A DNA stretch of 20,851 bases from a virus: positions 1 to 20,851 of the IMG/VR virus record IMGVR_UViG_3300020419_000099. One strand, given 5' to 3'. This document shows positions 2,232-15,312 of the stretch, one piece after another. The notes under the pieces are model-generated. The model worked only from the letters and a program-made list of their open reading frames with translations. It made no database searches and had not been told where the DNA came from. The position numbers were made by a program, and so were the translations under genes. Within the stretch, counting starts at the first letter, position 1; every line of letters starts with the position of its first letter.

Positions 2232-2876
2232 ATGGCAATTAAACTAACTATACCAGAATCACTAAATGAAATTACATTAGGCCAATATCAAAAATGGCTT
2301 AAAATAACTGATGGCAAAGAAATGAATACTTTCTACCAACAGAAGATGATTGAGATTTTTTGTAAAACAAGATTAATAGATGCTTTAAGAATGAAAGTAA
2401 CAGACATTAATAAAATTACTTTTGACTTAAATAAAATATTTGAAGATAAACCAGCATTTAAAGATAGATTCAGAATGAATGAAAAAGAATTTGGCTTCAT
2501 TCCTAAATTAGATGATATGACTTTTGGGGAATATGTTGATTTAGATAATTATCTTAATGAATGGGAAACAATGGATAAAGCAATGGGTGTTTTATTTAGG
2601 CCAATATCATTTAAAAGAAAAGGGCAATACAGAATAGAAGAATATGAAACTGCAAGTAAATACAATATGAAGAATATGCCCTTAGATATTGTAATGGCTT
2701 CACTACTTTTTTTTTGGAATTTAAAAAAAGAATTATTGAAACATATAGTGAATTATTTACAGAATCAGCAAGAAGTGAATTTGCCTCCACATCTGATAGC
2801 TTCATTAAAAAATGGGGTTGGTATCAATCCATTTACGGACTCAGTAAGGGAGATATTAGAAACATATCAGAAGTGA
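2232..2876 (+). CDS. Conserved phage protein, probable tail assembly chaperone (zero-frame product)
   Basis: A 214-residue soluble protein of a family I recall in flavobacterial phages (features: IPESLNEITLGQYQKW near the N-terminus, FGFIPKLDDMTFGEYVDLD near residues 87-105, and MPLDIVMASLLFFWNL near 150-164). The last 53 codons overlap a second reading frame in the -1 phase. The start of that overlap holds the perfect slippery runs T TTT TTT and A AAA AAA. The arrangement resembles the G/GT tail assembly chaperones of lambda-like phages, in which a shorter product and a frameshifted longer product help the tail tube polymerise on the tape measure. The usual position just before the tape measure is not kept: the tape measure is about 4.6 kb downstream, so the chaperone role is an inference. 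First gene of the tail module. Confidence 0.7.
   Translation: MAIKLTIPESLNEITLGQYQKWLKITDGKEMNTFYQQKMIEIFCKTRLIDALRMKVTDINKITFDLNKIFEDKPAFKDRFRMNEKEFGFIPKLDDMTFGEYVDLDNYLNEWETMDKAMGVLFRPISFKRKGQYRIEEYETASKYNMKNMPLDIVMASLLFFWNLKKELLKHIVNYLQNQQEVNLPPHLIASLKNGVGINPFTDSVREILETYQK
2708..2730 (+). promoter_or_regulatory. Candidate programmed -1 frameshift site (two slippery heptamers)
   Basis: In the zero frame the codons read CTT TTT TTT TGG AAT TTA AAA AAA GAA. This gives a perfect X XXY YYZ heptamer of T at 2708-2714 and another of A at 2723-2729. A -1 slip at either site enters the ORF that ends at 2974 and gives a fusion of 247 residues if the slip is at the first. No strong downstream stem-loop is visible by eye. 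The nine-T run could also hide a sequencing indel. Confidence 0.65.
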
Positions 2877-2974
2877 CTAAATTAAAGTTACACCAATGTT
2901 TGTATATGTTATCATTTGAAAAGGACAAAGCAAAAGTAGAAGAAAGTATTTTAAAAAGAAATGCAAAAGGATAA
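2714..2974 (+). CDS. Downstream frame of the probable tail assembly chaperone (expressed by -1 frameshift)
   Basis: An 86-codon frame whose only upstream start candidate is a TTG formed by the end of a T run. The next in-frame Met lies past residue 65, after the conserved-looking core KKWGWYQSIYGLSKGDIR, and there is no in-frame ATG or GTG before that core. Independent initiation is thus unlikely. The frame is open from 2660, so a -1 slip at 2708-2714 or 2723-2729 would join it to the preceding protein. The core, followed by EVTKLKLHQCLYMLSFEKDK, resembles a small phage protein I recall next to this family, which argues it is truly coded. It overlaps the next gene by 14 nt. The alternative is a separate product from a weak TTG start. 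Confidence 0.7.
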   Translation: MEFKKRIIETYSELFTESARSEFASTSDSFIKKWGWYQSIYGLSKGDIRNISEVTKLKLHQCLYMLSFEKDKAKVEESILKRNAKG

Positions 2975-3227
2975 AATAATAGAAGAACTAATAGAAAGAA
3001 AACTATTCTTAGAAGATGATGTAATTGTTCTTGCAGATGGTTATGAAGAAGCCATGATTGGTGTTACTGCTACAAAACCACTAAGAGTAATATATGACTT
3101 TTGGAAATGTTTAGACATTACAATAAAAGATGAAGATATGAGCTTTGATGATGCATTAGATTTTTTAAATGAATTTATAGAAGAAGATATGGGTGGACAT
3201 TCTCCCCTATACATAAAAAATATATAG
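2961..3227 (+). CDS. Small conserved phage protein (LADGYE family), function unknown
   Basis: An 88-residue acidic protein with the pattern VLADGYEEAMIGV, then RVIYDFWKCLDI, then MSFDDALDFLNEFI and GGHSPLYI. I recall this pattern (LADGFE, a K-C-I-x-I strand and a FxxN/GxxTPxF ending) in many small phage proteins without an assigned role. There are no membrane segments or catalytic motifs. The ATG at 2961 overlaps the previous frame by 14 nt and the gene ends one base before the next ATG, so it belongs to the tail operon by arrangement. Its relevance to tail assembly is only positional. Confidence 0.75.
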   Translation: MQKDKIIEELIERKLFLEDDVIVLADGYEEAMIGVTATKPLRVIYDFWKCLDITIKDEDMSFDDALDFLNEFIEEDMGGHSPLYIKNI

Positions 3228-7404: not shown

Positions 7405-7562
7405 AAGAATTAATTGAAGCATTAGAATTTTGCAAGGAAAATAATATCTATGATAAAAACATAAATATTGCATTAGGGAAAAACTTATATGCACAAACTT
7501 TTGAAGAAGGTGCAATACAAAAAAAAATAAAAGAATATGAAAACTATCTTAGTAGAAATTGA
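7401..7562 (+). CDS. 53-aa micro-ORF between tail protein and tape measure
   Basis: The ATG at 7401 overlaps the previous stop (ATGA), and the frame ends 26 nt inside the tape measure gene, so it fills the interval exactly. The peptide is helical and charged (KELIEALEFCKENNIYDKN, then a KKIKEYENYL helix). No family is assigned. Its coupling to both neighbours and reasonable amino acid composition suggest that it is real. A small tail-assembly accessory or a translational coupler are both possible. Confidence 0.6.
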   Translation: MKELIEALEFCKENNIYDKNINIALGKNLYAQTFEEGAIQKKIKEYENYLSRN

Positions 7563-9483
7563 TGTAGAGGGTGCACCACAGGCCATTAAGAATATTAATG
7601 ACTTAGAAAATGCTATTGGTTCATTAGAAGATGAATTAAAACAAGCTGAATTTGGTAGTGAAGAATTTAAAAAATTATCAAGGGAATTAACCAAGGCACA
7701 AAAGGAGTTAAAGAATACAGAACTTGCTATTGAATCTTTGGATTCAGAACAAGTTGCAAGTGAGTTTGGAGCATTAACTGGTGCAGTTGGTGATGTTACT
7801 GGTGCATTTGTTTTGCTTGGTGGTGAGGATGGGCCAATAGGTGAAGTTGGTGAAAGAATTAGTACTGCTATTGGTATATCAATGGCATTTAAAGGAGCAA
7901 TAGAAGGTATTAGTGCTGGTAGAAAATTATTAAACAATGCATTAGCAACATCAAACACATTACAAAAAATTAATAATACTGTCAATGTTGCAGCAACTGC
8001 AATTATGGGTTTATTTGGCAAATCTGTAAAAGCTACATCATTATCATTTAAAGCTTTAAAAGGTGCAATTATTGCAACTGGTATTGGTGCTTTAGTTGTT
8101 GGAATATCTTCTGCAATTAGTGCCATTGGAGATTGGATTAGTGGCACCTCTGGTGCAGAAGAAGCACAAGAAGCATTTCAAGCATCAATAGAAAGAACTA
8201 ATGAAGCATTAGATAAACAAACTAAAGCTTTTCAAGACCTTGGAAGGGAATTAGATAGAAATACAAAACTTCAAATTGCATTAGCAAAAGCACAAGGCAA
8301 ATCAAATGAGCAAATTGCCAGAATGGAAGAAAATGCTTTAAAACAAAAAATATTAAACATAAATAAAGAAATATCAGAAACAACAAAGCTGTATAAACAA
8401 AAACTTGAACAAGCTCAAACAAATCTTCATACAGAAGAAGAATTAAGAGAAATGAATTTACTCGGCATAAAAGATATATTTGAAAAAGAAGCCGAATTGC
8501 AACAAACAAGAAAGGATTTAGCTGCTGACTTAGCAATAATGATTAAAACAAATAATGCTAATGAAATAAAAGAAGAAAAAGAAAAACAAAATAAAATAAT
8601 AGAAACAGAAAAAAAGGCATCTCAAGAAAGAAGTAAAGAAAGAAAGAAAAATATAGAAGAAGCTGAAAAAGATGCTAAAGAACAAGCTGAAAAAGAAGCA
8701 CAAGAAGAATTACAAAGACAAAGAGAGCATGAGCAAAATTTAGCAGATATTAGAAATGAATTTTTATTAGAGTTAGAAGAAGAAACAGAAATATATAGAC
8801 AAAGTTTTTTAACAGAACAACAAATAGAGATTGAAGCAGTACAAGATAAATATTTTAGATTAAAAGAATTAGCAATACAACATGGTGAAGATACTACACA
8901 ATTAGTAGCAAATGAAGAAAAAGCAAAAGCAGATATTAGAAAAAAGTTTGCTGACCAAGAATTAAACAATAGAAGAGATTTAGCGCAACAACAACTTTCA
9001 ATTGCTTCTGATGCATTAGGTGCTATAAATGATTTAGTACAAGCATTTGCAAAAGAAGATGAAGAAAGCGCAAGAAAAGCATTTAATGTAAATAAAGCAA
9101 TAGGAATAGCACAAGCAATTGTTTCTACTGCTCAAGGTATAATAGCACAACTTGCAGTACCTCAAGATGCTTTGACTGGTGCAAACTTTGTAAAAGCTGG
9201 AATAGTGGCAGCAACTGGAGCAGCACAAATAGCAACAATATCAAAAACACAATTTCAAGGAAGTCAATCTGCACCACCGCCAAGGCCAAATTTAGGCACT
9301 GGTGCTGGAACTGGAGCAACAACACAACCACCAGCATTTAATGTAGTAGGCCAATCAGGATTTAATCAAATAGCAACTGCATTAGGCCAAGGCCAACCAC
9401 CAATACAAGCATTTGTAGTATCTCAAGATGTTACAACAGCACAACAATTAGATAATGCAATAATACAAACAGCAACTTTTTAA
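7537..9483 (+). CDS. Tail tape measure protein
   Basis: A 648-residue protein with the architecture of a tape measure. An N-terminal coiled-coil region (about 17-70) is followed by Gly/Ala-rich hydrophobic segments (about 78-95, 111-128, 150-162 and a longer one at 174-203). Next comes a long charged helical stretch of Lys/Glu/Gln heptads (about 205-480), a second Ala-rich hydrophobic patch (about 515-560) and a Pro/Gly-rich tail ending in QAFVVSQDVTTAQQLDNA. That ending is typical of flavobacterial phage tape measures as I recall. The protein sets the tail length, and the hydrophobic segments may help DNA cross the inner membrane. With the usual 1.5 A per residue rule the tail would be roughly 95-100 nm. 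The start overlaps the preceding micro-ORF. Confidence 0.88.
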   Translation: MKTILVEIDVEGAPQAIKNINDLENAIGSLEDELKQAEFGSEEFKKLSRELTKAQKELKNTELAIESLDSEQVASEFGALTGAVGDVTGAFVLLGGEDGPIGEVGERISTAIGISMAFKGAIEGISAGRKLLNNALATSNTLQKINNTVNVAATAIMGLFGKSVKATSLSFKALKGAIIATGIGALVVGISSAISAIGDWISGTSGAEEAQEAFQASIERTNEALDKQTKAFQDLGRELDRNTKLQIALAKAQGKSNEQIARMEENALKQKILNINKEISETTKLYKQKLEQAQTNLHTEEELREMNLLGIKDIFEKEAELQQTRKDLAADLAIMIKTNNANEIKEEKEKQNKIIETEKKASQERSKERKKNIEEAEKDAKEQAEKEAQEELQRQREHEQNLADIRNEFLLELEEETEIYRQSFLTEQQIEIEAVQDKYFRLKELAIQHGEDTTQLVANEEKAKADIRKKFADQELNNRRDLAQQQLSIASDALGAINDLVQAFAKEDEESARKAFNVNKAIGIAQAIVSTAQGIIAQLAVPQDALTGANFVKAGIVAATGAAQIATISKTQFQGSQSAPPPRPNLGTGAGTGATTQPPAFNVVGQSGFNQIATALGQGQPPIQAFVVSQDVTTAQQLDNAIIQTATF

Positions 9484-9495
9484 AAACAAAACAAA

Positions 9496-10575
9496 ATGGA
9501 AATAATAGAACTTTTATTAGATGAAGAAAATGAAACTGCTGGAATAGATGCAATAAGTATTGTATCATCACCCGCCATTGAATCAGATTTTATAAAACTA
9601 AAATCACAAGAAATTAAATTTGCAAAAGTAGATGATGAAAAGCGCATCTTAATGGGTGCTGCTTTAATACCAAATAAACCTATATACAGAAAGGATGAAA
9701 AGAAAGAATACTATGTTTATTTTTCTGCTGATACAGTAAGGAAGGCAAGTGAATTATTCTTTATGAATGGAAACCAAAACAATGCAACCTTAGAACACAA
9801 TATGAACTTAAACGGTTTGACAGTTGTTGAATCATGGATAGTAGAAGGTGAACAAGATAAAAGCAAAATGTATGGCCTTGATGTTCCAGTAGGTACATGG
9901 ATGGTATCTATGAAAGTAAACAATGATGAAATCTGGAATGAATATGTGAAAACAGATAAAGTAAAAGGATTTTCAATTGAAGGTTACTTTGCTGACAAAG
10001 CAAATATCAAAGCAAGTGTAGAAGATGTTGCTGAAAAAAAAGCAGAAGAAAAAATAGAAAAAATTAGAAATCTATTTAAAAAAAAAAAGATTGAATTAGA
10101 AACTTATAATGATTATCCTGATGCAGTTAGTAATAATGCTAAAAGGGGAATAGAACTAAATAAAAAAGTAAATAATAAATGTGCTACACAAGTTGGCAAA
10201 GTAAGGGCGCAACAATTAGCAGATAAAAAAAATATAAGTTTAGACACTATTAAAAGAATGTATAGTTATTTAAGTAGGGCAGAAGTATATTATGATGAAA
10301 GTGATACTAAAGCATGTGGAACAATATCTTATTTATTGTGGGGTGGCAAAGCTGGTTTAAGATGGTCATTAAGCAAACTTAAAGAACTTGATGAAGTTAA
10401 TTTAGCATCAATGGTTATAGATGAAGATTATGCAGTAATAGATGATAGATTAGCTTATAGCACACAAGAAAAAGCAGAAGAAATGGCAATTAATATTGGG
10501 TGTAAAGGTTTTCATACTCATGAATTAGAAAATAAAACTTGGTACATGCCATGTGAAAAACATATAAATAAATAA
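9496..10575 (+). CDS. XkdF-like capsid maturation serine protease with two extra C-terminal domains
   Basis: Residues 1-170 match the XkdF-type phage protease pattern: an N-terminal AGIDAISIVSSPAIES, RILMGAALIPNKPIYR, a His in LEHN (H101) and a Ser in KGFSIEGYF (S160), likely catalytic. It would cleave scaffold and perhaps capsid during prohead maturation. A basic coiled-coil linker follows (about 172-203). A second domain (about 204-300) has a YPDAVSNNAKRGIELN helix, CATQVGKVRAQQLA and ACGTISYLLWGGKAGLRW. A short third module has GCKGFHTHE and YMPCEKH (336-356), which could bind a metal. I recall the same fusion in other Bacteroidetes phages, so it is not an assembly error. It lies directly after the tape measure with an A-rich leader. 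The protease role is well supported; the roles of the added domains are unknown. Confidence 0.85.
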   Translation: MEIIELLLDEENETAGIDAISIVSSPAIESDFIKLKSQEIKFAKVDDEKRILMGAALIPNKPIYRKDEKKEYYVYFSADTVRKASELFFMNGNQNNATLEHNMNLNGLTVVESWIVEGEQDKSKMYGLDVPVGTWMVSMKVNNDEIWNEYVKTDKVKGFSIEGYFADKANIKASVEDVAEKKAEEKIEKIRNLFKKKKIELETYNDYPDAVSNNAKRGIELNKKVNNKCATQVGKVRAQQLADKKNISLDTIKRMYSYLSRAEVYYDESDTKACGTISYLLWGGKAGLRWSLSKLKELDEVNLASMVIDEDYAVIDDRLAYSTQEKAEEMAINIGCKGFHTHELENKTWYMPCEKHINK

Positions 10576-13473: not shown

Positions 13474-15312
13474 ATGGATAATTTACATTTAATACAATTA
13501 AACGAATATCAAAGACCAGTAATTACTGAAGAAAAAAACAGAGATTGGATTGGTATTGGTGAACATAATGACTACTATCAGAATTTGATAGATGCATTCA
13601 TGGATTCAACTACTAACAATGCAGTAATAAATGGTATTGTAGATAGAATCTATGGTAAAGGTTTAGATGCTACTGATAGCCATAAAAAGCCAGAAGAATA
13701 TGCAAACATGAAATCCATCTTAAAGAAAAAAGATTTAAGAAGGGTTTGTCAAGATTTAAAACTATTGGGTGAGGGTGCTTTTCAGGTTACATATCAAGGC
13801 AATAAAATAAAAAGCATTACACATTTTCCAAGGGAAACTTTACGTGCTGAAAAATGCAATGAAGAAGGTGATATTGAAGCTTATTATTATAGTGCTGATT
13901 GGAAAGATGTAAGAAGAAATACTAAATTAAAAAGATTTCCAGTATTTGGTTCAGGCGCACAAAATGAAATATTTATAGTAAGAAGGTATGTTACTGGATA
14001 TTATTACTACTCACCAGCCGATTATCAAATAAGCTATGCAACATTAGAAAAAGAGATTGCAGATTATTTAATTAATGATTGCCAGAATGGTTTTTCAGGT
14101 ACTAAAGTGGTGAACTTTAACAATGGTGTACCAGATAGGGAAAAACAATTAAATATCAAGAATGACGTAATGTCAAAACTGACTGGCAGTTATGGTGAAA
14201 AAGTTATTATTGCTTTTAACAATGATGCAGAAAGTAAAACAACTATTGATGATGTACCTTTAAATGATGCACCAGCGCACTATTCATATCTTAGTGAAGA
14301 ATGCTCTAAAAAGATAATGGTTACACATAGGGTGACATCTCCAATTTTAATTGGTTTAAATTCATCTAATGGCTTTTCAAGTAATGCTGATGAAATTAAA
14401 AATGCTTCATTATTATTTGATAATGTAGTTATAAAACCTTATCAAGAATTATTGATAGATGCATTAGATGAAATGTTTGCAGTAAATGATATTGCATTAA
14501 ATCTTTATTTTCAAACTATTGAACCTTTAGAATTCATTGAAATAGATAAAGATATGGATGCTGAGGTAATAGAAGAAGAAACTGGTATTGATGTAGAAGA
14601 CCAAGATTTTAAAGAAGAAGATGAATATCAACAAATAGAAGAAATTATTAGTAAATCTAAACTAAGTAAATTAGAAAATAAACAAGAATTAACTGATGAA
14701 GATTATGAAGTTATTTTAGATGGTTTACAAGGTGAAGTAATGGATGAAGATTGGGAAGAAGTTGCTGAACGTGATTATTTAGAAACTAATGATGAAGAAG
14801 ATTGGGCTAATAGTTTAATTAAAACTGATTTAGCAAGTATTGATGATAAGCCAAGTGGATTTAGTATTTTAGATAAATCATATTACAAGATTAGATTTAA
14901 ATATACTAAGGGTTCAAATAAACCTAATAAAAAAGGCAATAAATCAAGGCCATTTTGTGAAGCAATGATGGCAAGAACTGCAAATAAAATTGTTTATAGA
15001 ATTGAAGATATAGATAAAGCCAGTACAGTAGCTTTTGAAAAGTCAGCTAAATTACCTATGCACAATGGACAATCATATTCATTGTTTAAATTTAAAGGTG
15101 GTGTATACTGCAAACACAAGTGGGTTCAAGTATTATACAAAATGAAAACAAAAGAAGCACTTGAAGGTAAAAAAGGCAGTAAAGATATAGAAGATTACAA
15201 AAGAGTAAAAGAAATTCCAAAAAGTTACAGACGTTCACCAGCTGGAAGTAATAAAGCAAAAGTAGCACCAATTAATATGCCTAATAACGGACATTACCCC
15301 GGAGTTAAATAA
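13474..15312 (+). CDS. Phage portal protein with an extra C-terminal domain
   Basis: A 612-residue protein. The first roughly 350 residues have the portal pattern: an N-terminal AVINGIVDRIYGKGLD, LKLLGEGAFQVTYQGNKI, ISYATLEKEIADYL, RVTSPILIGLNSSNGFSSNADEI and a final helix with KPYQELLIDALDEMF. Twelve copies would form the DNA entry ring. Next is a very acidic linker (about 360-455) and a C-terminal domain (about 462-575) with YYKIRFKYTKGSN, PFCEAMMARTANKIVYRIEDI and LFKFKGGVYCKHKW, followed by a basic end with INMPNNGHYPGV. I recall this C-terminal domain attached to flavobacterial phage portal proteins. Its Cys and His residues could bind a metal, and its job is unknown. The start is 13 nt after the previous gene. 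The portal assignment is confident. Confidence 0.88.
   Translation: MDNLHLIQLNEYQRPVITEEKNRDWIGIGEHNDYYQNLIDAFMDSTTNNAVINGIVDRIYGKGLDATDSHKKPEEYANMKSILKKKDLRRVCQDLKLLGEGAFQVTYQGNKIKSITHFPRETLRAEKCNEEGDIEAYYYSADWKDVRRNTKLKRFPVFGSGAQNEIFIVRRYVTGYYYYSPADYQISYATLEKEIADYLINDCQNGFSGTKVVNFNNGVPDREKQLNIKNDVMSKLTGSYGEKVIIAFNNDAESKTTIDDVPLNDAPAHYSYLSEECSKKIMVTHRVTSPILIGLNSSNGFSSNADEIKNASLLFDNVVIKPYQELLIDALDEMFAVNDIALNLYFQTIEPLEFIEIDKDMDAEVIEEETGIDVEDQDFKEEDEYQQIEEIISKSKLSKLENKQELTDEDYEVILDGLQGEVMDEDWEEVAERDYLETNDEEDWANSLIKTDLASIDDKPSGFSILDKSYYKIRFKYTKGSNKPNKKGNKSRPFCEAMMARTANKIVYRIEDIDKASTVAFEKSAKLPMHNGQSYSLFKFKGGVYCKHKWVQVLYKMKTKEALEGKKGSKDIEDYKRVKEIPKSYRRSPAGSNKAKVAPINMPNNGHYPGVK

Follow-up and report, generated by a model that had tools for sequence, protein, structure and literature searches.

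A conserved T run joining two overlapping frames in marine flavobacterial phages, a candidate site of RNA polymerase slippage

The gene pair and its surroundings

The DNA analysed here, referred to as the window, is a virus record of 20,851 bases from IMG/VR (IMGVR_UViG_3300020419_000099). It is a phage contig, and the isolates closest to this phage are the Nonlabens phages P12024S and P12024L. A gene belonging to phrog_32199 is overlapped by a second frame in the -1 phase, and between this gene and the tape measure gene there is a run of tail genes. The features are the following:

782-1990: terminase, large subunit
2232-2876, plus strand: zero-frame gene, 214 aa (ATG at 2232, stop at 2874-2876; phrog_32199), with a conserved N-terminal domain (about residues 1-177) and then a variable tail
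2660-2974, plus strand: -1 frame, open from stop to stop (stop at 2972-2974)
2707-2715, plus strand: T9 run, the conserved frame-change site, with T TTT TTT in phase at 2708-2714
2714-2974, plus strand: part of the -1 frame that would be used after a shift, 86 codons plus stop
2723-2729, plus strand: A7 heptamer (A AAA AAA, in phase), incidental
2961-3227, plus strand: next gene, 88 aa, its start overlapping the end of the -1 frame
7537-9483, plus strand: tape measure protein (phrog_1506, E 8e-8, and four other tape measure families)
9496-10575: head maturation protease-like gene
13474-15312: portal

In codons, the run at 2707-2715 reads CTT TTT TTT TGG, and a fusion made there would count 161 + 86 = 247 aa. 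The nearest start codon in the -1 frame of the window is a TTG at 2714-2716. The original prediction, which proposed a programmed -1 frameshift at this place, had given the limits of both frames, the positions of two slippery heptamers, the TTG at the T run and products of 214 and 247 aa, and all of these coordinates proved exact. No Pfam family was matched by the zero-frame or the -1 part of this window. A small ORF of about 32 codons (2133-2230) lies between the terminase and the zero-frame gene and ends just 5' of the ATG of the latter.

Conservation of the T run and of the -1 domain

Protein searches of IMG/VR, GTDB genomes and INPHARED recovered more than 300 relatives, among them a Winogradskyella MAG and, at about 25% identity, two phages in culture, Nonlabens phages P12024S and P12024L. 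Bacterial genomes contributed a few prophage-like copies only, with T9 in all four that were inspected, and one further weak match (L313). Conservation of the overlap phase and of a slippery run among homologues had been named as a check on the frameshift, and the T run is indeed kept across 325 distinct homologues, with the phase conserved too. Over this set, in which identity falls to about 25%, the run has nine T's in 303 sequences, ten in 21 and eleven in one, and none has seven or eight. One sequence (L015) was left out of the count, as the contig end cuts inside its run; the site of L331 is T9. The ten-T runs were produced by substitution and keep the -1 relation. In the first set of homologues, T TTT TTT is in phase in 261 of 262 distinct zero frames, and the remaining one stops before the site. 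Across these alignments, the presence of the run at the same place in 325 homologues is far beyond chance. Of the two heptamers put forward as slippery sites, the T run is thus the conserved one, whereas only 4 of 250 homologues have the A7 heptamer in phase, and it has to be regarded as incidental. Several relatives also have a run of eight or nine T's in noncoding DNA, a short way 5' of the start codon of their zero-frame gene (L127, 608-616; L129, 4947-4955; L146, 3469-3477; L135, 3568-3575).

Codon usage at the site was compared in 70 sequences less than 95% identical. At codons 159-161, synonymous change is absent: the two phenylalanine codons are TTT and TTT, and the third base of codon 159 is T, in 70/70 sequences. 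This third base is fixed despite variation in the amino acid encoded (V, L, I or G). Elsewhere, TTC makes up 16.5% of Phe codons in the zero-frame gene, and at one other conserved Phe it is used in about half of the sequences. In the same 70 sequences, the ratio of observed to expected synonymous difference drops from 0.87 before the T run to 0.53 after it, as would be expected of a stretch read in two frames.

The -1 part is likewise conserved. In a set of 254 sequences, it measures 80-89 aa in all complete homologues, and the fusion has a near-constant length, mostly 241-250 aa (231 in P12024), whereas the end of the zero-frame product varies (166 to 242 aa) with the -1 domain kept. Mean identity is 0.594 in the -1 domain past the zero-frame stop, compared with 0.484 in the zero-frame tail, and the core of the -1 domain, KWGWYQSIYG, is conserved. 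The claim that the -1 frame has no ATG or GTG before this core holds for 105 of 115 representatives between the run and the core, and 69 of the 115 have no TTG there either. In 59 of 97 relatives, the ATG of the next gene overlaps the -1 stop as ATGA, an arrangement which suggests that this gene is coupled to translation of the -1 frame.

Taken together, the conserved overlap phase, run, -1 domain and fused length, all read from genome sequences, strongly support a programmed -1 frame change. This part of the original prediction has therefore stood, whereas the ribosomal mechanism attached to it is put in doubt by the constant retention of at least nine T's, the lack of structure and the rarity of Shine-Dalgarno (SD)-like motifs. 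As a separate observation, the +1 frame has a stop two codons past the T run in 102 of 115 homologues; this stop is probably forced by the two overlapping frames, and it would immediately terminate the products of other slips.

Predicted folds and the tail chaperone question

The zero-frame protein and the -1 domain were folded as separate models. In the AlphaFold2 model of the former, pLDDT per ten-residue block is 81-94 up to residue 160 and 36-53 after residue 170, so the unshifted tail appears to have no predicted fold. The -1 domain is modelled as all-helical with moderate confidence (pLDDT 73), and a predicted helix (151-177) spans the shift site. In Foldseek searches of BFVD, the N-domain and -1-domain models both match the same single viral proteins of 243-267 aa, encoded by uncultured phages (A0A6J5N0W0, A0A516L611, A0A516L5A8 and A0A6J7WJY4 among others), which on the basis of these models could be natural single-frame versions of the fusion. 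No PDB match was found for the zero-frame or the -1 part, by sequence or by fold. Flavobacterium phage 6H was considered as a relative and set aside: the fold match is weak, its gene lacks a long T run, and the layout of the frames there is unclear. In that phage (L314, 10352-10927, minus strand), the downstream coding sequence seems to change frame within about 100 bases, and these apparent changes could be sequencing errors or recoding.

A role as tail assembly chaperone, the function assigned in the original prediction, is plausible from the position of the pair in the module, its overlapping-frame architecture and its size, although the hints of sequence or fold that link it to known G/GT proteins are weak. 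Twenty of 73 members match phrog_166 ('tail protein') weakly, with a best E value of 9e-4, and the Foldseek matches to annotated tail chaperone proteins have E values of 0.09-0.27; no sequence homology of the pair to lambda G/GT and their counterparts was detectable. Like lambda G/GT, the pair belongs to a tail module, consists of a short product and a -1 fusion with an extra C-terminal domain, and has its slippery site in the overlap, with both site and phase conserved. It differs in its site, which is always a T run (T9-T11), where lambda-type G/GT have a mixed heptamer such as G GGA AAG. Nor does it sit beside the tape measure gene: a location between the major tail protein and tape measure genes is lacking, and the pair instead follows the gene for the terminase large subunit. 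The unusual spacing that had been noticed earlier is real: the tape measure gene begins 4.66 kb past the zero-frame stop, with several genes between. The same block is present in Nonlabens phage P12024S, in the order terminase, pair, phrog_30964, phrog_29822, phrog_35281, phrog_38559 and tape measure, with small genes interspersed. The homologous pairs of P12024S and P12024L (genes 38/39 and 40/41), at about 25% identity, share the T9, the frame relation and the neighbouring gene families; in their deposits, however, each half is a hypothetical protein in its own right and no frameshift is annotated.

Polymerase or ribosome

Unshifted expression would yield the 214-aa protein, whose last 50 or so residues are poorly conserved, and a frame change at T9 would join the N-terminal domain to the 86-residue helical -1 domain to give 247 aa. 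In the reading that we prefer, the polymerase would insert one U while transcribing the run, so that a fraction of the mRNAs would carry U10 and be read through in frame, and ribosomes that slip by -1 on the in-phase U UUU UUU inside the run may contribute too. The products would most likely form a G/GT-like pair, in which the short form is accompanied by a longer one carrying a second binding domain. We consider it fairly probable that two proteins are made by RNA polymerase slippage at T9 and that they are such a pair. The wider proposal concerns a widespread group of marine flavobacterial phages, in which a tail gene would be recoded at the RNA level instead of on the ribosome, slippage of RNA polymerase on a conserved T run yielding both versions of a protein that resembles a tail assembly chaperone; we hold this to be slightly more likely than not. 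What we infer rather than observe is that the polymerase and not the ribosome slips, in what ratio the products are made, and that they act as chaperones.

Two explanations would dispense with recoding altogether. Homopolymers are prone to error, and the true run could have ten T's within one ordinary gene, sequenced or assembled wrongly or broken. The same frame relation recurs, however, in two isolate genomes and in distinct homologues that come from many independent assemblies, the ten-T runs that do exist leave the -1 relation intact, and the zero-frame stop shifts position while the -1 domain is retained; this explanation is refuted in practice and hardly credible. Nearly as improbable is a separate, unfused gene in the -1 frame with its own start, reached by internal initiation or re-initiation. 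The TTG in the -1 frame at the run would fit such a gene, as would the annotation of P12024S as two genes meeting near the site, but the 69 representatives that lack ATG, GTG and TTG between run and core would have no start for it, conservation of the T run would be unneeded, and the single-chain viral proteins of 243-267 aa in BFVD match both domain models.

Programmed -1 ribosomal frameshifting on U UUU UUU, in the style of lambda G/GT and without a strong downstream stimulator, is a different matter. It is the less probable route in our judgement, but it has to be taken seriously, either as a rival or as a partner of polymerase slippage. T TTT TTT is in phase in every intact homologue, and since every T9 contains this heptamer, ribosomal slippage would be possible at every site; the direction of the shift and the overlap match those of tail chaperone genes, for which the known cases are described as ribosomal (PMC5009743). 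The T's in eighth and ninth position would then be a by-product of amino-acid preference, whereas seven would be enough for the ribosome, and runs of seven or eight are absent from the 325 homologues. The stimulators of ribosomal frameshifting, a downstream structure or an upstream SD-like element, are common though not obligatory. Neither is evident here: downstream RNA, examined for nested structures, shows no excess stability (mean z +0.15, n=90) and gave an empty consensus fold, and SD-like motifs upstream of the site are rare (13/115). Weak or absent stimulators are not unusual among known tail-chaperone shifts.

The composition of the run bears on the same choice. In canonical members, the T's beyond the heptamer come from the second base of codon 159 and the first base of codon 162. 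Sequences were classed by the number of T's upstream and downstream of the first in-phase heptamer, which gave (1,1) in 295, (1,2) in 13, (2,0) in seven, (2,1) in six, (0,3) in two, and (0,2) and (1,3) in one each. The upstream T was lost in three sequences at three separate places in the tree, all of which carry two or three T's downstream, and the downstream T was lost in seven sequences at no fewer than two places, all of which carry two upstream. Such replacement of a T lost on one flank by one on the other speaks against the ribosomal explanation. With independent flanks, 9.5 rows with fewer than nine T's would be predicted; none was observed, none of 20,000 permutations pairing the flanks at random matched, and counting origins instead of rows gives a probability of about 2e-7. 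These figures are a guide only, since adjacent amino acids depend on one another and the choice of test was made with the data already in view. The five compensated origins (three plus at least two) are also few. Moreover, run length is not a clean measure, because a preference for V, L or I before and Y, W, C or F after the run partly explains the flanking T's. In the other coding sequence of the 115 representatives (577 kb), T7 occurs 63 times, T8 six times and nine or more T's once, whereas outside those ORFs runs of at least nine are far commoner (19 in 245 kb). Long T runs are therefore avoided in these genes, yet they are always kept at this site.

A run of nine A's or T's whose length is conserved among homologues very likely serves transcriptional slippage (Baranov et al., 2005; PMC1088944). 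The present site is of this kind, with about nine or more T's, conserved in length, joining overlapping ORFs. This, together with the absence of structure and the rarity of SD-like motifs, favours polymerase slippage, which we judge to be at least as good an explanation as ribosomal slippage and probably the better one, although sequence alone gives no proof. As both routes yield the same protein, only RNA data can separate them. The closest precedents are mxiE of Shigella flexneri and bacterial IS elements, which use T or A runs about nine long for transcriptional slippage (PMC1088944); there too, two overlapping ORFs are joined by a one-nucleotide insertion at a homopolymer of conserved length. 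The gene described here differs from them in being a phage structural-module gene.

Frameshifted tail genes and slippage on 9T are both already known. In the literature searched, which was thin on subscription papers, no earlier report was found of 9T slippage in a tail-gene pair of a large unannotated marine group. The present analysis identifies phrog_32199 and its unannotated -1 partner, whose function was previously unknown, as a recoded gene pair that hundreds of marine phages share. If the polymerase does slip, transcription would fix the ratios for tail assembly in these phages, and two different recoding levels would have arrived at one protein logic, as is known for dnaX. The question of slippage is directly testable in a culturable phage.

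A second homopolymer was noted in the head maturation protease-like gene (9496-10575). It is a run of eleven A's (10078-10088), read in frame as LFKKKKIELE, that falls where the head maturation protease domain meets a C-terminal domain; both other frames stop within three codons. More distant relatives of this gene mostly have no such run and are read in one frame. Close relatives have 9-11 A's, and in two of them with ten (L419 and L422) the C-terminal part lies in the -1 frame. The A11 run may be another site of slippage, or else a fragile linker.
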